Source: a virus
DNA length: 20,914 nt
Strand: one strand, 5' to 3'
IMG/VR virus record: IMGVR_UViG_3300034378_000218
Coordinates: 1 to 20,914 of that record
The position numbers and the translations under genes are program-made. Within the stretch, counting starts at the first letter, position 1. Each line of letters opens with the position of its first letter. Below are positions 3,620 to 14,227 of the stretch, in pieces. The notes under the pieces were generated by a model that was not told the origin of the DNA, did no database searches, and saw only the letters and a list, made by a program, of their open reading frames with translations.

Positions 3620-3997
3620 ATGTATCGAATTTGCAAGAGAAGCCCAAATTTGTCTGTCAAAAAGAAAGGCAAAGGCTATCATGAAGTGCCGATGGTCAAG
3701 TTCGGAAAAGAAGGCAAGTGTTTCTTCAATGTGGCCGCGCGAAAGAAGTTTTTAAAGAGAAATAAATATGCTGAGATTCTGGTGGATGAGATACGTGGAC
3801 GCATCGCGTTTAACATATTGGAGCATCCGAGCCTCAATTCGTTCAAATTATCGCCAAACAACAAGAAGAGCAAAAGCTCTTCTGAGAGCCTGCAGTCCAC
3901 TAGTCTCTCCAAGACGAAGGTCTACAAGCAGGTTATGGATAGGAAATTGCCAGTGGAGTATAATCACAAGAGGAAGCTACTTGAGGTAAAATTGTAA
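3620..3997 (+). CDS. Hypothetical basic protein
   Basis: AAAGGAG precedes a GTG-ATG pair; ATG 3620 is preferred. The roughly 125-residue protein is very basic, with Lys/Arg clusters (KKKGKG, ARKKFLKRNK), a serine-rich polar linker near residues 82-98 (SKSSSESLQSTSLSK) and a basic tail. Such charge suggests nucleic-acid binding, but no fold is recognised. It is followed within 20 bases by the promoter of the ribbon-helix-helix gene. Confidence 0.65.
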   Translation: MYRICKRSPNLSVKKKGKGYHEVPMVKFGKEGKCFFNVAARKKFLKRNKYAEILVDEIRGRIAFNILEHPSLNSFKLSPNNKKSKSSSESLQSTSLSKTKVYKQVMDRKLPVEYNHKRKLLEVKL

Positions 3998-4012
3998 AAT
4001 TTGTATTTTTAT

Positions 4013-4041
4013 TTGACAAATATGTCATTTGCTGATACAAT
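4013..4041 (+). promoter_or_regulatory. Sigma70-type promoter of the RHH gene
   Basis: TTGACA (4013-4018), 17 bases, TACAAT (4036-4041). The transcript should start near 4048, only about six bases before the ATG at 4054, so the regulator may be translated from a nearly leaderless mRNA. The promoter matches 20 of 29 positions of the one at 206-234. Confidence 0.8.
4014..4027. promoter_or_regulatory. Candidate operator TGACA-N4-TGTCA
   Basis: A perfect inverted repeat, TGACA-AATA-TGTCA, overlaps the -35 box. Ribbon-helix-helix repressors commonly bind short inverted repeats over their own promoter, and the gene for one lies 27 bases downstream. The shorter form GACA-N4-TGTC recurs in the same register at 208-219. 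Binding is inferred. Confidence 0.5.
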
Positions 4042-4053
4042 CCTGGATAAGAG

Positions 4054-4206
4054 ATGAAAAACAAAAAAGATCTACATATTTTGGTGGATGAGGAGCTCTA
4101 CGATCGGGTTAAGAGAATTGCGTCGAGGGACGACCGGAGCTTGACGCAGACCGTCCGGCGTGCTATAATAGAATACCTAAGGAAAAAGGGCGCGATAGAG
4201 AGCTGA
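4054..4206 (+). CDS. Ribbon-helix-helix DNA-binding protein (50 aa)
   Basis: The product fits the Arc/CopG/MetJ fold: a short strand (LHILVDEELYDRV) followed by two helices ending in SLTQTVRRAIIEYLRKKG. Dimers of this fold insert a two-stranded sheet into the major groove. No ribosome binding site is evident and the start lies about six bases from the predicted transcript start. It is probably a transcription repressor controlling itself through 4014-4027. A second promoter is embedded in its coding sequence. Confidence 0.8.
   Translation: MKNKKDLHILVDEELYDRVKRIASRDDRSLTQTVRRAIIEYLRKKGAIES
4141..4169 (+). promoter_or_regulatory. Extended -10 promoter inside the RHH gene
   Basis: TTGACG (4141-4146), 17 bases, TATAAT (4164-4169), with TG one base before the -10 box (extended -10). 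It lies within the last third of the regulator gene and would start transcription near 4176, making the RNA-rich leader upstream of Ro60 independent of the regulator's own promoter. Confidence 0.7.
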
Positions 4207-4228
4207 TTGTTCTTTGTTAATAAATTTT

Positions 4229-4316
4229 GGGCAGTGAGCAATGGGTTACTTCGACAGTTAAAATCTATATAGTGATAAAGACTATATAGTTGTTTAATGT
4301 GTCCACGGGGCACGTT
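4229..4316 (+). ncRNA. Structured RNA module A (Y RNA candidate)
   Basis: The module begins GGGCAGTGAG and contains two strong hairpins: CTATATAGT/ACTATATAG (4265-4289) and AATGTGTCC/GGGCACGTT (4296-4316, nine pairs including G-U). Module B at 4531 has the same start and the second hairpin at the equivalent place with different bases but preserved pairing. Bacterial Ro60 genes typically sit beside genes for Y RNAs, some with tRNA-like modules. That link here is by position and structure only. Exact ends are unknown. Confidence 0.5.
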
Positions 4317-4456
4317 ATGTATCAATATGCGTACCAAGCACATACGATACAAGAGTGAAAACTCAAAGCGACGGAAACGCTTTAAAATTCCACCCAGCGC
4401 GGTTTTCTCTCAGAATATATATAGAATTTATAACGCATCGCATCCTTGAATATCCT

Positions 4457-4529
4457 GAGATTGGGGCTACAATCTCTCAGTAACCAATCTGTAGAAGCCC
4501 TATCCCTTTAGGGATAAGGGAGTAGTCAC
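4457..4529 (+). ncRNA. TnpB omega-RNA-like scaffold, copy 1 (73 bp)
   Basis: These 73 bases are identical to 18702-18774. They form GAGATTG/CAATCTC with loop GGGCTA; that loop can pair with AGCCC further on as a pseudoknot. A second hairpin is CCCTATCCC-TTTA-GGGATAAGGG, and the element ends GTAGTCAC. From memory, this layout (GTAGAAGCCC, TTTA-loop hairpin, TCAC end) matches the right end of IS200/IS605-type elements, which is also the 3' scaffold of TnpB omega RNA. The guide would begin at 4530. No tnpB is nearby. Confidence 0.65.
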
Positions 4530-4530
4530 T

Positions 4531-4615
4531 CGGGCAGTGAGGATATGGGATACTTCGGAGATGCTGGATTCCCTATTCCAGTTAATGCGCCATGGCGCAT
4601 TATGTTCCCTGTCCG
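4531..4615 (+). ncRNA. Structured RNA module B, cloverleaf-like (Y RNA candidate)
   Basis: CGGGCAG (4531-4537) pairs with CTGTCCG (4609-4615) as a closing 7-bp stem. Inside lie CTGGA/TCCAG (4564-4581) and AATGCGC-CATG-GCGCATT (4584-4601), plus a first part (GTGAGGATATGGGATAC) shared with module A and containing AG...GGG like a D loop. The outline resembles a tRNA-like fold, as in YrlA-type Y RNAs, but no T-loop signature is seen. It begins right after scaffold copy 1, so its first bases would also be the guide. Confidence 0.5.
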
Positions 4616-4662
4616 GCTTACTCCCAATTATATCGATTCCCCCTAGTTATAGGAGGCGAACC

Positions 4663-5400
4663 ATGCCGAGATTCAATGTAAAATCCAGCCAAGAAAGCAA
4701 GACCATCAATCTGGCTGACGGCGAGGCCTTCCAGGAGTCGCCCAAGCTAGAATTCATATCCATCCTTTTAACCTCTTTTATCAAAGATAAATACTATCGC
4801 TGTGCGGACGACACAATCAAGAGGCTCATCGAGCTGACGGAATCCATTCCGGACAAGAAGTTCATCGCCAAGACGGCAATCTATGCGCGGAATGAATTCG
4901 GGATGAGATCCGTGTCCCATCTGGTGGCAGGCGAGGTAGCCAGGCTGGTCAAGGGCCAGCAATGGACCAAGCGGTTCTTCGACAAGGTGATACACCGCGT
5001 GGACGACATCACTGAGACATTGGCGTATTATCTAGACAGATACAGGAAGCCCATACCCAACGCGATGAAGAAAGGCTTGGCGCGCGCGTTTGACAAATTC
5101 GACGCATATCAGCTGGCGAAGTACAGGGGAGAGGGTGCCGCTGTGTCTTTGGTCGACGCGATGAATCTGGTCCATCCGATTCCGACGGAAAAGAATGAGG
5201 CTGCGTTGAGGATGCTGGTTGCTGGAACATTGAAGTCAGAAGGCACCTGGGAGGCGAGGCTCACCAAGGCAGGCCAGGAGGCACAGGTTCAGGATAAAAA
5301 ATTAGACAAGAAAAAAACATGGGAGGAAATAATTGATATGTGGATAATTACTTTACCAGAGGAAGATAGAGAACTGGAGACAGAATTTAAAAGTGCCTAA
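4663..5400 (+). CDS. rsr: Ro60 N-terminal half (TROVE domain)
   Basis: The 245-residue product matches the TROVE HEAT-repeat ring of Ro60 (KKFIAKTAIYARNEFGMRSV, WTKRFFDKVIHRVDD). Ro60 binds Y RNAs and the ends of misfolded RNAs. AGGAGG precedes ATG 4663. Homology should continue past KTWEEIID, but after about codon 226 (base 5340) 19 unrelated residues lead to TAA. The remaining part of the protein restarts at 6324. From about 5290 the coding becomes AT-rich. The fragment could pair with the second half. Confidence 0.85.
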   Translation: MPRFNVKSSQESKTINLADGEAFQESPKLEFISILLTSFIKDKYYRCADDTIKRLIELTESIPDKKFIAKTAIYARNEFGMRSVSHLVAGEVARLVKGQQWTKRFFDKVIHRVDDITETLAYYLDRYRKPIPNAMKKGLARAFDKFDAYQLAKYRGEGAAVSLVDAMNLVHPIPTEKNEAALRMLVAGTLKSEGTWEARLTKAGQEAQVQDKKLDKKKTWEEIIDMWIITLPEEDRELETEFKSA

Positions 5401-6175
5401 ATGTATGATTTGCAAAGAAAATTTTAGACAGATTACTGGTACGCATTTACAGAGAAAACATGAAATTAGAACTGTAGCTGAATATAAAAAAATATATCCA
5501 TATGCCTTAATTATAGACGGAGATATTTCTAATAGATTAAGAAATAATTTTTTAAAAACAAAAAATAAATATCCTGATAAAATTGGATTTAAGAAAGGAG
5601 AAGGTCAGAGGAAAGAATTTATTTCTTGGAATAAAGGATTAACTAAGGAAGTTGATAGAAGAATTTATAAACAATCGATAAATCAGAGAGGGCCATTTAC
5701 AGAAGAACATCGGCGAAAAATATCTGAGACAAGAACTAAACGTCAAAAATATGAACATTGTATTAAGTGTGGTGTTAAGAAAGGAAAAACAACTAGAAAG
5801 TTATGTATTTTTTGTGCTCGAAAAAAATTAATAACGAAAAAAGATTATATCAATCCAATGAAAGGCAGAGAGATATCAGATGAACATAAAAGGAAATTAT
5901 GGGGTGGATGGAAAACAAGATATACTAAACCTGAGTTAAAGGTTTTAAATAGTTATTCTAACCTTATTTATACAGGAGATGGAAAATTATGGATATCTTT
6001 TAGAGATGGAAGTTGTAAAAATCCAGATATAGTTTACTTGCATCCTAAATATAAAATAGCAATAGAGATATTTGGTGATTATTGGCACAGAAATGATGAT
6101 CCAGAGGAAACTAAAGAGAAATATAGTAAAGTAGGATGGCGTTGTTTAATTTTATGGGAACATCAGGTAAATTAA
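5393..6175 (+). CDS. Vsr-like (EDxHD) homing endonuclease
   Basis: Domain order in the 260 residues: a C2H2 finger (C4, C7, H18, H23), two NUMOD3-like DNA-binding segments (about 98-113 and 152-170), a four-cysteine knuckle between them (about 122-140), and a C-terminal nuclease with E near 180 (KPE), NPDIVY, then IEIFGDYWH. The last part matches the Vsr-like PD-(D/E)xK homing nucleases such as I-Bth0305I. GTG 5393 overlaps the Ro60-N stop. The gene is strongly AT-rich. An in-frame TAA at 6173 cuts off about 45 residues (see next entry). Confidence 0.8.
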   Translation: MPKCMICKENFRQITGTHLQRKHEIRTVAEYKKIYPYALIIDGDISNRLRNNFLKTKNKYPDKIGFKKGEGQRKEFISWNKGLTKEVDRRIYKQSINQRGPFTEEHRRKISETRTKRQKYEHCIKCGVKKGKTTRKLCIFCARKKLITKKDYINPMKGREISDEHKRKLWGGWKTRYTKPELKVLNSYSNLIYTGDGKLWISFRDGSCKNPDIVYLHPKYKIAIEIFGDYWHRNDDPEETKEKYSKVGWRCLILWEHQVN

Positions 6176-6313
6176 TGGTATAGAGAGAAGATTTTATGTG
6201 AAATTATAAATCAATTTATAAATTATGATGAATATTTTCCACATAGAGCAAAGAATGAGAAAGAATACGGTTCAATGTTTATTTATAATTTAAATAAATT
6301 TTTAATGCTTTAA
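6176..6313 (+). pseudogene. Severed C-terminal tail of the homing endonuclease
   Basis: Directly after the TAA at 6173 the same frame stays open for 45 codons (beginning WYREKILCEIINQFI) to a TAA at 6311, eleven bases before the Ro60-C start. The composition is that of the endonuclease and the helix-rich start fits the expected end of a Vsr-like domain. A single C-to-T or G-to-T change (CAA or GAA to TAA) would explain it. Readthrough is possible but unsupported. Confidence 0.6.
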
Positions 6314-6323
6314 AGGAGATATT

Positions 6324-7085
6324 ATGATTGTTAAAAATTATTTTGCAATTTTAAGGAATCTCCGTAATATTTTAGAAGCTGAAGTAGATGATTATCATTT
6401 AAATAAAGTTATTAAGGCGCTATCTTTTGAACCAGCTATTAGAAAATCGCTAGTATTGCCTTTTAGATTCACAACCGCATTGGACGAGATAGAGAAGACA
6501 AATCTAGATGGAGCGAAGGATGTGCTGGTTGCGCTGAACAATGCAGTGGACATCTCGTTGAAGAACGTGCCGGTGTTCGAGGGCAAGACGCTGGTGGTTT
6601 TGGACCAGTCGGGCTCGATGCATGGCAGGCCCGCGCAGATAGGCAGCCTGTTCGCGGCAGTTTTGGTCAAGTCCAACAACGCCGATTTGATGACATTCAG
6701 CAACGACGCCAGATACAAGACAATAAATCCGATGGACAGTATTATCACTATCGCCAGCAGCCTTCGGAGAGCCACTAATGGCACGAACTTCCACGCGATA
6801 TTCAAGACAGCAAACAAGGTATATCAAAGGATAATCATTCTTTCTGATATGCAGGGTTGGATAGGGTTCATGACGCCCGCCGCGGAATTTGCTGAGTACA
6901 AAAGAAAATACAATGCGGAGCCTTTTGTCTATTCGTTTGATCTAGCTGGCTATGGAACGTTGCAGCTGCCACAGCGAAATGTGTATTGTCTGGCAGGGTT
7001 TAGCGACAAGGTCTTCGATGTCATAAAGTTTCTGGAGACGGACAAAGAGGCGTTAATGCATGAAATTGAGAAAATCGAATTATAA
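6324..7085 (+). CDS. rsr: Ro60 C-terminal half (end of TROVE plus vWA domain)
   Basis: The 253-residue product begins with the TROVE segment NYFAILRNLRNILEAE, which in intact Ro60 proteins follows the part ending the first half. A von Willebrand A domain follows with a complete MIDAS: DQSGS (D94, S96, S98), T154 and D175 in ILSDMQ. An AAAGGAG site six bases before ATG 6324 allows independent translation. Both halves together give about 470 native residues, near normal Ro60 size. Coding is AT-rich to about 6475 and GC-richer after. Confidence 0.85.
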   Translation: MIVKNYFAILRNLRNILEAEVDDYHLNKVIKALSFEPAIRKSLVLPFRFTTALDEIEKTNLDGAKDVLVALNNAVDISLKNVPVFEGKTLVVLDQSGSMHGRPAQIGSLFAAVLVKSNNADLMTFSNDARYKTINPMDSIITIASSLRRATNGTNFHAIFKTANKVYQRIIILSDMQGWIGFMTPAAEFAEYKRKYNAEPFVYSFDLAGYGTLQLPQRNVYCLAGFSDKVFDVIKFLETDKEALMHEIEKIEL

Positions 7086-7101
7086 GAATTGAGGTTAAGA
7101 A

Positions 7102-7221
7102 ATGCCTACTATTCAAGGATATTCTGATGGGGTTTTTTGGGAAAGAAATGCATTAAACGAAATCAAAAAGAATGAAAAGAAGAAGCCAGACACCGAAAAT
7201 CAGGTGGAACTGTCGGAGTAG
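7102..7221 (+). CDS. Tiny charged protein (39 aa)
   Basis: GAGG precedes the ATG at 7102; 39 codons end in TAG at 7219. The peptide begins MPTIQGYSDGVFWERNAL and continues with a Lys/Glu-rich helix. Its end overlaps, in another frame, a methyltransferase remnant, so the junction near 7190 may be where foreign DNA was joined. It may be a truncated gene. No family recognised. Confidence 0.35.
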   Translation: MPTIQGYSDGVFWERNALNEIKKNEKKKPDTENQVELSE

Positions 7222-7313
7222 TTTCCAAGCAATTAGGACATAACTTCATCGGCATAGAATTAGACGAGGAGTATTTCAAGATTGCAAAGAAGCGGATAAA
7301 TGAAAATCTATAA
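7203..7313 (+). pseudogene. C-terminal remnant of a DNA methyltransferase
   Basis: A frame ending TAA 7311 encodes GGTVGVVSKQLGHNFIGIE, then LDEEYFKIAKKRI. This matches the end of beta-class N4/N6 DNA methyltransferases, where GSGTT-G-VA..LGR..IGIE is the SAM-binding motif and EY...A..R the final helix. There is no start codon or upstream body; an in-frame TGA lies at 7173. It is a decayed fragment beside an intact MT-A70 gene. Confidence 0.7.
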
Positions 7314-7406
7314 AATCACAGATTTTACGGTTAGAAAAAGAAATCTCTGTTGAAGACATGCAGAGGATTGTTAATGCAAACGAGAAATTAGTTAAGGAGT
7401 TGAAAG

Positions 7407-7967
7407 ATGGAACAAATACCGTTTCCAAATAAGAAATATCAGATTGTATATGCTGACCCACCGTGGTCTTTTTCTAGCAAAGAACTACAAAAGTATGACG
7501 GGAAAAGATTTACCAGTATGGATAAACACTACCAGACACAGAGTAAAGATTGGATAAAGAATTTGCCAGTGAGCAATATAACCCAAACTGATTGTGCTTT
7601 ATTTTTATGGTCTACTGACGCTCATTTAGGGGAAGCTATCGAAACTATGGTAAATTGGGGGTTTAAGTATATAACGGTTGCTTTTGTTTGGGAAAAACTA
7701 ACTGCAACTGGAAAAACAGTAGCGAATCTTGGTGCTTGGACAATGAAAAATTATGAGTTGTGTCTGTTCGGCACTAAAGGAGCGATGTTAAAGTATAAAA
7801 AAGTTAATAACATATATCAGAAGGTTGCAGCGGAAAGAACAAAGCATAGTAGAAAACCAGAGCAAGTAAGGAAAAATATTGAGCTTCTTTTTGGTGATTT
7901 ACCACGAATAGAGCTATTTGCACGACAAAAGACAGAGGGGTGGGACGTTTGGGGCAATGAGGAATAG
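7407..7967 (+). CDS. MT-A70-family adenine N6-methyltransferase
   Basis: The 186-residue protein has DPPW at residues 17-20 (VYADPPWSF), the catalytic motif of the MT-A70 family, followed by TDCALFLWST, WGFKYITVAFVW and the conserved end ELFARQKTEGWDVWGNE. Phage members methylate adenine in DNA and probably protect the genome from host nucleases or act as orphan modification enzymes. AAGGAG precedes the ATG. AT-rich composition groups it with the endonuclease region. Confidence 0.88.
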   Translation: MEQIPFPNKKYQIVYADPPWSFSSKELQKYDGKRFTSMDKHYQTQSKDWIKNLPVSNITQTDCALFLWSTDAHLGEAIETMVNWGFKYITVAFVWEKLTATGKTVANLGAWTMKNYELCLFGTKGAMLKYKKVNNIYQKVAAERTKHSRKPEQVRKNIELLFGDLPRIELFARQKTEGWDVWGNEE

Positions 7968-8587: not shown

Positions 8588-8997
8588 TAATTGGTGATAT
8601 CCTGTTGTATTTCAATAAGTTGACTAAGCTTGGCGCCATATACAAAAGGAATTGCATAGACCCTAGAAAGGTTATTGGATTGCCAGTGACTGAAGGTGGG
8701 GATTATCTAGGCAAGATAATAGGTCGAGTAGAGGATTGTATAATTGACAAGGATTGTTTGAAGGTTGTGGTTTATATTGAGGATAAGGACTTTTACGCCG
8801 ACTTAAAAAACAAAGTTCTTCGACCGGTATTTCAAATAAATGAGCAGGAAATTCAGAGGGATGGCACGGTCTTAATCAAGGATGTCACAGTGATTCAGGT
8901 GAATGCCATTTCTGAGAAATTTGATATTTACAATAAGAAAGAGGTGGAAGATGACCAAGAAGGCAAAGAGAAAAACAAGAAAAAAGATATTGATTAA
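8584..8997 (+). CDS. Hypothetical protein, GTG start
   Basis: GTG 8584 overlaps the TGA of the Trm112-like gene (GTGA). The 137-residue protein looks rich in beta strands (KIIGRVEDCIID, KVVVYIED, VTVIQVNAI) and ends in a highly charged tail (EDDQEGKEKNKKKD). It resembles head-decoration or capsid-stability proteins only in general appearance. The 3' end overlaps the vWA gene by 47 bases. Confidence 0.65.
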   Translation: MIIGDILLYFNKLTKLGAIYKRNCIDPRKVIGLPVTEGGDYLGKIIGRVEDCIIDKDCLKVVVYIEDKDFYADLKNKVLRPVFQINEQEIQRDGTVLIKDVTVIQVNAISEKFDIYNKKEVEDDQEGKEKNKKKDID

Positions 8998-9649
8998 TTT
9001 TATCCTGGATGAGACTGGCTCGATGCTTAACATTCAAGATAAGACAATAAGCGGCTTCAACGAGTATGTCGCCTCGCTGTGCAAGAAGAACGAGGATGAT
9101 ATCCGGATGACGCTGACGAAATTCAACAGTACAAAGGTAGATATTGCATATGCCAATAGGCCGATTAAAGAGGTCAAGAAGTTATCACACGCGACCTATC
9201 GACCTGATGCACTCACACCTTTGTACGATGCAATAGCCAAGACGATAAAGAGAATCGAGAAGGATGTGACTAAGAGAACAAATGTACTGACGGTAATCAT
9301 GACCGACGGATATGAGAATGACTCCAGGGAATACAAGCGAGAGGATATATTCAAGATGATAAAGGACAAAGAGCAGGTCGGCTGGTCGTTTGTCTATCTT
9401 GGCGCAAACCAGGATTCCTGGGCAGCAGGGCAAGCCATGGGATTAAAAAAAGGCAATGTTGCAGATTATAACCAGCGGAGAACAAAGCGTACATTTAGGG
9501 TATTGGCTGGTGCGACAATGGGATACGCAATGAGCGTATCTAGTGGCACATCGGCGTCGACATCGTCAGCTTCGATCAATAGTTTTTTTAGTAAAAAAGA
9601 TAAAGAGGAATTAAAAAAAGGAGGCGATCAAAATGTCAATGCCAAGTAA
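8951..9649 (+). CDS. Von Willebrand A domain protein
   Basis: From ATG 8951 (site GAGGTGG) the product has 232 residues. The MIDAS motif is complete: DETGS (D20-S24), T89 in the ALTPLYDA segment, and D119 in VIMTDG. After the domain a Ser/Thr/Ala-rich low-complexity stretch (about 200-215) leads to a Lys/Glu tail. It is a cytoplasmic metal-dependent binding protein, unrelated in detail to the Ro60 vWA. Metal-ion adhesion usually means assembly of a larger complex; the likely partner is the next gene, which overlaps by 17 bases. Confidence 0.85.
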   Translation: MTKKAKRKTRKKILINFILDETGSMLNIQDKTISGFNEYVASLCKKNEDDIRMTLTKFNSTKVDIAYANRPIKEVKKLSHATYRPDALTPLYDAIAKTIKRIEKDVTKRTNVLTVIMTDGYENDSREYKREDIFKMIKDKEQVGWSFVYLGANQDSWAAGQAMGLKKGNVADYNQRRTKRTFRVLAGATMGYAMSVSSGTSASTSSASINSFFSKKDKEELKKGGDQNVNAK

Positions 9650-12312: not shown

Positions 12313-12867
12313 ATGGAGATTGTAGATTATTTAGAACAAATAGAGAACGAAAAATACAAAGATTCTCTCTTGGAGCTATATTCGAACATAGAGAGTAGGC
12401 TCAAGTCATTCCCCGCGGCAATCAGATGGCATCACAGTGAAAGTGGCGGATTGTATAGACATATAAAGGAAGTCTTGGAGATTATTATTGAGCTTTATGA
12501 ATGCTTCAAGGGAGAACTGTTGAAGATAGATATTTCCAAGGATGATGTGATTCTTGTCGCGTTCGTACACGATTTAGAGAAGCTGGATAAATATGTTAAG
12601 AATAACAGCTATAATCCGCAGAAAAAATATGAGAAAGGATATAAGGAGACTGAGTTTTCATACAACTACAAGAAGATAGACATGAACGACACCGCCCAGA
12701 TAGTCCGGATATGCGCGCAATATGGAATAATTTTGTCCAATATGCATATCAATGCCATCTCGTTTCATCATGGGGGATGGAGTGCTGATAGAGGTAGATT
12801 GCAGCCTTTGGCGGCTTTGTTGCATGCCGCCGATTTGATCAGTGCGACATTTTTTAAAAATGAATAA
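12313..12867 (+). CDS. HD-domain phosphohydrolase
   Basis: The HD signature is clear in 184 residues: H50 (GGLYRHIKEV), the H86-D87 doublet (LVAFVHDLEK), H152/H153 (ISFHHGGWS) and D174 (LLHAADLIS). HD enzymes use one or two metal ions to cleave phosphate esters, often dNTPs, cyclic or linear nucleotides. Size fits a stand-alone hydrolase. In a phage, nucleotide-pool control or removal of a host signal nucleotide is plausible; the substrate cannot be read from the sequence. Confidence 0.85.
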   Translation: MEIVDYLEQIENEKYKDSLLELYSNIESRLKSFPAAIRWHHSESGGLYRHIKEVLEIIIELYECFKGELLKIDISKDDVILVAFVHDLEKLDKYVKNNSYNPQKKYEKGYKETEFSYNYKKIDMNDTAQIVRICAQYGIILSNMHINAISFHHGGWSADRGRLQPLAALLHAADLISATFFKNE

Positions 12868-13312
12868 GCTTAAATCCCTTTCGGAAACAGCAGAAATTTT
12901 AGAAATCCATCCTAGCACTCTGCGCGCCTGGGCACAGGCCAAGATTGTGCCTTACTATCGGATGGGCAAGAAGTATTTCTTTGACCTTGATGCGATGAAA
13001 AAATCTACTCTTTCCAAGGCGGAGGCCTCCTCTTTGGCGGCGCAGCAGCTCACATCTCAACACAATGGCGTCTCTATCCTTAACGGCTATCTTCAGGTCT
13101 ATGTCGGCAAGCATCCTATGGCAAACAAAAGAGGCTATGTTCCATTGCATCGGCTCATTATGCAAGGCCTATTAGGTAGGTTACTTGAAATGAATGAGAT
13201 TGTGCATCATAAAAATGGCAATACCTTGGACAACAGGATTTGCAATCTTGAGCTATTCAAATCGCTGGGCGAGCACAACGCGGAGTATTCCGTATTAGGG
13301 AGCTACAAGTGA
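12860..13312 (+). CDS. HTH plus HNH endonuclease fusion
   Basis: ATG 12860 overlaps the HD gene and lacks a strong binding site. Residues 1-50 form an excisionase/MerR-type winged helix (SLSETAEILEIHPSTLRAWA, VPYYRMGKKYFF). After a linker, residues 93-145 form an HNH nuclease (VPLHRLIM, IVHHKNGNTLDN, ICNLEL), the type in phage homing endonucleases. Homing HNH proteins more often carry NUMOD or AP2 DNA-binding domains at the C-terminal side. The protein may be a free-standing homing endonuclease. Confidence 0.8.
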   Translation: MNKLKSLSETAEILEIHPSTLRAWAQAKIVPYYRMGKKYFFDLDAMKKSTLSKAEASSLAAQQLTSQHNGVSILNGYLQVYVGKHPMANKRGYVPLHRLIMQGLLGRLLEMNEIVHHKNGNTLDNRICNLELFKSLGEHNAEYSVLGSYK

Positions 13313-13608: not shown

Positions 13609-13853
13609 AGATTAAATTTCCAGGCTTTATGACATTAAATCAATGGCGGGCCTTTAGATGCCCTTTTAGGAATATAGGTAGTTGTCTATGTACAGAATGT
13701 TCATTCTTTGGCGTAAAGACAAAAACAGTAGTTGATCCAAACACGAAGGAAACCATAGAGATAAATGATTTAGATAAAAATAGTCAACCTCAATATATCT
13801 GCGGTATTAATCTTTGGCTTCAGGGAGTTGCGGATAATATAAAGGAGAAATAA
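13605..13853 (+). CDS. Small cysteine-containing hypothetical protein, TTG start
   Basis: TTG 13605 overlaps the previous TGA (TTGA), with AGAGGAGA eight to twelve bases upstream. In 82 residues five cysteines occur (CPF, CLCTEC, YICG). The CxCxxC cluster may bind metal. No family recognised. The stop shares its last base with the GroES start (TAATG). Confidence 0.6.
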   Translation: MKIKFPGFMTLNQWRAFRCPFRNIGSCLCTECSFFGVKTKTVVDPNTKETIEINDLDKNSQPQYICGINLWLQGVADNIKEK

Positions 13854-14227
13854 TGAACCTTAAGCCTGTGAATGAGCGATTGCTTGTTGTTCCCAAGGAG
13901 ATGGATGCAAGAATCGGCAGCATCGCTGTGCCGGACACATACCGAACCAAGCAAGACGAAAAGCCTGAGGTGGGCTTTGTCGCCGCAGTGGATGACAGCG
14001 AGGACAGGGAAGAGCCGTCGAAATACAAAAGAGGCGATAAGATTGTGTTCAACAAGTTCGCTGCCACTGACATAGTCTATCGAGACAAAGATTCTAACAA
14101 AGAGGTGAAGTACCTGATTATGCTCGAATCGTCTGTCCTGGCCGTCTTCGAATACGTCGACGATGCGGAGCGGGATATGTATTTGGCGAAAGAGAAGGTA
14201 TGTGATGCAGATGCGTCAGCCGTTTGA
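13853..14227 (+). CDS. groES: GroES-like co-chaperonin
   Basis: The 124-residue protein begins LKPVNERLLVVPKEM, followed by the mobile loop region ending IAVPDTYRTKQ, then VGFVAAVDD, RGDKIVFNKFAATDIVY and a final YLIMLESSVLAVFEY, all at GroES positions. Cellular GroES has about 95 residues; this has a longer acidic middle and a 20-residue C-terminal extension. Phage co-chaperonins (T4 gp31 is the model) cap the host GroEL to fold capsid protein. Position before the head module fits. Confidence 0.85.
   Translation: MNLKPVNERLLVVPKEMDARIGSIAVPDTYRTKQDEKPEVGFVAAVDDSEDREEPSKYKRGDKIVFNKFAATDIVYRDKDSNKEVKYLIMLESSVLAVFEYVDDAERDMYLAKEKVCDADASAV

Follow-up and report, generated by a model that had tools for sequence, protein, structure and literature searches.

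The stretch of DNA analysed here, referred to as the window, comprises positions 1–20,914 of the virus record IMGVR_UViG_3300034378_000218, a genome fragment of 20.9 kb. In this window, Ro60 is coded in two open reading frames with an endonuclease frame between them, all on the plus strand. Ro60 is a ring that holds RNA by its central hole and outer face. The first frame (N-half, 4663–5400) follows a ribosome-binding site (TAGGAGGC, 4650–4657), encodes the N-terminal portion of the TROVE domain, followed by a tail of at most 19 amino acids (WIITLPEEDRELETEFKSA). The second frame (C-half, 6324–7085) encodes the C-terminal part of TROVE and a von Willebrand A (vWA) domain, and has, as the first-pass annotation had stated, its own ribosome-binding site, AAAGGAG (6312–6318), just ahead of the ATG at 6324. 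The insert that separates the two halves, as delimited by comparison with intact relatives, spans 5341–6326 and measures 986 bp when the ATG found at both edges is counted once, its true edges being uncertain by several codons. It contains a Vsr-like homing-endonuclease gene (5393–6175), whose GTG start at 5393 overlaps the stop of the N-half. Ro60 gave one match only in the 20.9 kb record; this record is itself a phage genome fragment, and an intact second copy may lie elsewhere in the phage, outside the fragment.

Both halves belong to the Ro60 family. The Pfam TROVE profile matches the N-half with 37.6 bits and the C-half with 31.7 bits, above the curated cut-off of 23 in each case. The C-half also matches Pfam VWA_2 (27.6 bits), and its vWA domain carries the DQSGS metal-site motif. 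Moreover, the halves are adjacent on PHROG_850, the phage Ro-like RNA-binding protein, which the N-half covers to position 203 and the C-half from 211 (7.1e-29). The earlier reading of this locus as a Ro60 split in two, with the break inside the TROVE ring domain, is therefore upheld by the profile matches and by the continuity of the protein in relatives. The latter emerged from the alignment of intact Ro60s to the joined halves that the first-pass annotation had proposed: among the viral-contig loci from our scans, which served as the intact comparison set, more than 100 related loci have a continuous Ro60.

The closest relative by N-half is the intact Ro60 of locus L109, to which residues 1–205 of the N-half are about 67% identical. 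Joining the halves at the shared ATG gives the usual codon spacing of most intact relatives. It should be noted that this join is a choice and that the proteins of L284 and L287, unbroken at the window's site, have a longer linker there; the insertion point is therefore uncertain by several codons, and exact codon spacing is weakened as proof of it. To place the break in the structure, we used an AlphaFold2 model of L109, which was confident (pLDDT 91.6) and whose fold matches solved Ro60 structures. These include the Ro60 of Thermus phage phiLo (PDB 9l5y, 9kop), which likewise has TROVE and vWA domains but consists of one chain, unlike the two cistrons of the window. In alignment numbering, the break corresponds to L109 residues 224/225, at the end of helix 208–224 and before loop 225–229, which leads into the YFALLRNLRN helix. 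On this model, the break in the window is predicted to fall at a helix end, in a loop between TROVE helices.

The frame in the gap matches the homing-endonuclease family PHROG_314 (1.5e-6), and a profile built from its relatives hits the structure of Vsr, 1cw0 (9e-5). In this profile alignment, Glu181, Asp212 and His232 of the endonuclease align with the Vsr residues that we take to be E25, D51 and H69. The direct Pfam Vsr match is weak (0.0055; 17 bits, below the cut-off of 27), and the fold model of the endonuclease was too poor to be used (pLDDT 43). The protein has a Cys/His finger-like motif in its N-terminal part and the nuclease in its C-terminal part. Downstream of the in-frame TAA at 6173–6175, another 45 codons of this frame, up to 6313, are free of stops (about 0.0025 by base shuffling), and the relatives L008 and L009 carry a further C-terminal stretch where the window frame has stopped; the endonuclease gene is therefore likely to have extended across the gap in the past. 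The C-terminus is incomplete, with the TAA preceding the last helix. Since this in-frame stop takes off the last helix, the endonuclease of the window may be in decay, as judged from its reading frame. Thus, the description of an EDxHD frame filling the gap holds for its Vsr-like nature and its span over nearly the whole gap, and has to be amended for the premature TAA, which had gone unmentioned. No close endonuclease relatives were found in named phages, and those in viral contigs are distant only, mostly sitting between other genes. One distant relative, at L015 3983–6431 (also in L016 and L017), lies near an open reading frame that by eye resembles the C-terminal half of a split intein (HMFFANGVYS), a layout corresponding to the known fractured-gene arrangement.

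We also examined how often Ro60 is split, using a frame-by-frame scan of 262 viral Ro60 loci, some of which overlap on one contig. A single-frame Ro60 was found in 248 of these loci; the remainder comprises the window, truncations at contig ends, real splits, and the loci L068 and L133, which have one in-frame stop and a frameshift, respectively, and were left out of the split count as single-base-type events. A motif search contributed two more splits, L287 and L289; it was chosen after the window had been seen, and these two are therefore unfit for a frequency estimate. Two loci are split at the window's loop and have no endonuclease: L214 (2986–4687), with its halves 28 nt apart, and L289 (91–1706, minus strand), with its halves 56 nt apart. 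A second loop, between L109 helices 146–151 and 161–168, is split by HTH/HNH endonuclease genes in three lineages, represented by L088 (5001–7133; also L089 and L164), L216 (1783–3973; also L217) and L287 (1540–3866, minus strand). The three HNH proteins lying in these breaks are homologous, with 28–37% identity to the first. In L089, a stop has been acquired in the HNH gene while the Ro60 halves are unchanged. Beside the break in L088 and L216, Trp replaces a near-invariant Tyr, a substitution seldom seen in intact proteins. Of the 80 cellular Ro60 loci examined, one is truncated by a contig end, and none of the 79 complete genes is split; the 60 best of the listed matches in named phages are likewise all in one piece. 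On the sequences compared, the split is not unique to the window and occurs in six lineages at two loops.

If the insert were a group I or group II intron coding the endonuclease, it would be spliced out. We weighed this idea seriously because phage endonucleases distantly related to EDxHD/Vsr sit in group II introns (PMC12350094), and the restoration of the usual codon spacing by the shared-ATG join also speaks in its favour. However, a search of 3900–7500 against Rfam returned no intron or other family, either at the gathering cut-off or at E ≤ 5, and the non-coding part of the insert amounts to ~65 nt when the old endonuclease frame is counted, and to ~200 nt at most, which leaves little room for a ribozyme. 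Moreover, the C-half has its own Shine-Dalgarno sequence and start, the residues at the join read IVKN where nearly all relatives have [KR]K[IL]G, and the halves of L214 and L289 are cistrons with only the short spacers given above between them. With Rfam silent and no ribozyme core detected in the insert, an intron of either group was rejected and appears very improbable. The window thus shares with those intron-borne endonucleases a distantly Vsr-related nuclease domain and a phage host gene, but not the intron (PMC12350094). No informative direct or flanking repeats were found at the insert edges.

The halves could also be joined as proteins, by a split intein splicing in trans. Fractured genes with split inteins and a Vsr-like endonuclease family have been described (Dassa et al. 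2009, as cited in PMC12350094 and PMC10448857), and, as far as these citing papers relate it, the same broad kind of endonuclease lies in the gene break there as here. The window differs from that arrangement in having no intein halves: a Pfam search found no intein domain in either Ro60 half, and the tails at the break, up to 19 amino acids on the N-half and about 5 on the C-half, are too short. For these two reasons, split-intein halves are ruled out, so that the Ro60 protein cannot be ligated, and we give trans-splicing next to no likelihood. The earlier statement that the locus holds neither an intron core nor an intein agrees with both sets of searches.

We then considered whether the two pieces are likely to work. 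All 37 residues that are near-invariant among intact Ro60s are kept in the window halves, and 33–36 of them are kept in L088, L289, L216, L287 and L214. In relative-rate tests against intact sisters, one of six tests for the window was nominally significant, with the N-half faster (p = 0.016, uncorrected), and the C-half of L216 was faster in one of two tests (p = 0.0009); a consistent acceleration is absent in the split Ro60 halves. An alternative to be weighed here is that the split Ro60 is a dead gene, inactivated by the insertion, with both of its pieces drifting. This would agree with the stop already present in the endonuclease frame and with the single nominally significant test. On the other hand, both halves are fully open and have ribosome-binding sites, and the split recurs in other lineages, twice as clean cistrons without an endonuclease. 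Because the full set of near-invariant residues is kept and no consistent acceleration is seen, decay of the window Ro60 is quite unlikely. The same-site and second-site splits in relatives, two of them without an endonuclease, suggest that Ro60 can work as two pieces; taken together, the conserved residues, the rates, the recurrence and the endonuclease-free forms argue for two working polypeptides.

GC content changes sharply at both edges of the insert, and the AT-rich block is not confined to the insert but takes in adjoining Ro60 codons at either end. The 5′ flank (about 5293–5340, plus strand) covers the KTWEEIID segment, and the 3′ flank runs from 6324 to about 6458–6470 on the same strand. 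By the break, GC3 is 0.27 in the 5′ flank and 0.00–0.27 in the 3′ flank, compared to about 0.7 in the Ro60 body. Both flanks are also of another Ro60 clade type. The 5′ segment TWEEIID scores +8.6 towards the second clade, a value reached by none of 83 clade-1 proteins. For the 25 residues following NLRNI, the score towards the second clade is +22.2, against a mean of −47.9 (sd 20.2, maximum +9.8) for the 83 other clade-1 proteins in the same region. The next 18 residues beyond the 3′ segment score as ordinary members of the window's clade. Since a single adjoining motif (presence or absence of S-x-Q) sets the clades, and the scored segments are short, this clade evidence is good, not decisive. 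The body of the C-half groups with L109 and L140 (tree support 0.965).

A similar picture was obtained for L289, which is sister to the intact L240 (support 1.0). The DNA of these two loci is 68–71% identical except in one tract, which begins at the W-E codons and extends some 40 codons into the C-half, and the same region looks foreign in the window. The DNA similarity of the window flanks to L289 is not exceptional (ranks 7 and 4); a recent cassette shared by the two was therefore rejected, and only a resemblance in protein type is claimed.

Co-conversion of flanks accompanies homing and is a published signature of homing repair (PMC2988022). Judged by the GC3 of the flanks as well as by their clade scores, flanks of another Ro60 clade type fit co-conversion, in which donor flanks would have been copied during repair of a cut. 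A sharp GC change at both edges, in a metagenome contig, might also be expected if the split were an assembly chimera of two viral genomes. Such an artefact would, however, have had to produce two precise junctions in one gene, at one homologous place and with correctly ordered start signals, and L214 and L289, independent contigs of different sample origin, show this split too; we regard a chimera as hardly credible.

Overall, we consider it likely that a one-piece phage Ro60 became two cistrons, with a free-standing Vsr-like homing-endonuclease gene between them and neither RNA nor protein splicing. The donor would have been a phage Ro60 of an AT-rich lineage, already split and carrying the endonuclease gene; no donor Ro60 with the same endonuclease was found among the sequences compared. 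An intact Ro60 of the window's clade would have been cut and then repaired from the donor copy, and in this repair the endonuclease gene and the donor flanks would have been copied along with the split itself, which would thereby have been transferred to the window lineage. The two polypeptides would then fold, dock via the interface between their helical repeats and form a ring like that of Ro60, with RNA binding retained. The endonuclease, with its premature stop, would decay while the split persists.

A different history is that the endonuclease gene landed in an already split Ro60 pair and is a passenger, not the cause of the break. The splits of L214 and L289 at the same loop, which contain no endonuclease, are in line with this, and for gene 43 of Aeromonas phage 25 a landing after the split has likewise been considered (PMC2988022). 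In view of L214 and L289, the endonuclease is to be taken as the putative maker of the break. Conversely, the body of the window gene groups with the intact L109 and L140 and, among the loci compared, every other single-frame member of the clade is continuous at the site, so that the split and the endonuclease probably arrived together in the window lineage; at the second loop, moreover, all three known split lineages have an endonuclease. A passenger endonuclease is thus unlikely. In the donor lineage, either the split or the endonuclease may have come first; the same holds for gene 43 in Aeromonas phage 25 (PMC2988022).

Beyond the window, we put forward more tentatively, with somewhat less than an even chance of being right, that homing spreads the fracture: an endonuclease and its co-converted flanks would move between distant phage Ro60s and create an obligate two-subunit ring, and the later loss of the endonuclease would leave a stable two-gene Ro60, as in L214 and L289. 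If true, there would be two places at which Ro60 splits naturally, each used by an endonuclease family of its own.

The separation of genes by free-standing endonucleases is known already. In Aeromonas phage Aeh1, nrdA is split by mobE and the enzyme is fully functional as two chains, and in T4 gene 60 is split by mobA (PMC2988022). As in the window, the coding region there is interrupted by a free-standing endonuclease gene, no intron or intein is involved, and two cistrons result. In contrast to these cases, where the endonuclease is of the HNH type, that of the window is Vsr-like; its host gene encodes the ring-shaped RNA-binding protein Ro60, whose two chains may be functional, and endonuclease-free split relatives exist. 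For genes 43A/43B of Aeromonas phages 25 and 44RR, the endonuclease seg43 is found in one phage and an untranslated spacer in another (PMC2988022), much as in the window versus L214 and L289; however, the protein there is a DNA polymerase, the endonuclease is of another family, and Ro60 is split at at least two loops in different lineages. The first-pass annotation had also considered a split Ro60 to be new. Indeed, we found none in the literature searched, a search without most subscription journals, but the arrangement recurs in other phage lineages, as described above. What Ro60 adds as new to this known kind is a single protein broken repeatedly, at two loops and by endonucleases of unrelated families, with some forms lacking the endonuclease and with flanks that are mosaic.

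The natural split Ro60s, in six lineages and at two loops, offer ready split points to probe ring closure and the need for a covalent chain. They also open up the question of how phage proteins are remodelled by selfish endonucleases where neither an intron nor an intein is present, and the mosaic flanks make a testable case in which the break itself, beyond the endonuclease, may travel by homing.

Several features of the neighbourhood deserve mention. Just 5′ of Ro60, the window has a strongly folded leader at 4466–4640 (4340–4662: z −2.7) with no Rfam match, possibly a Y-like RNA gene or a leader. Shortly after the C-half, 7200–7312 (GTVGVVSKQLGHNFIGIELDEEYFKIAKKRI) resembles by eye the 3′ terminus of a gene for a DNA methyltransferase, its front part missing, and this piece is followed closely by an MT-A70 methyltransferase (7407–7967). 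A second von Willebrand A protein, in which TROVE is absent, is encoded ~1.9 kb downstream of the C-half (8927–9646; Pfam VWA 5.1e-7). Another free-standing endonuclease-like gene, with HTH_17 and HNH_3, lies at 12842–13312, and a phage-encoded GroES-like co-chaperonin at 13853–14227 (Pfam Cpn10 4.7e-11).
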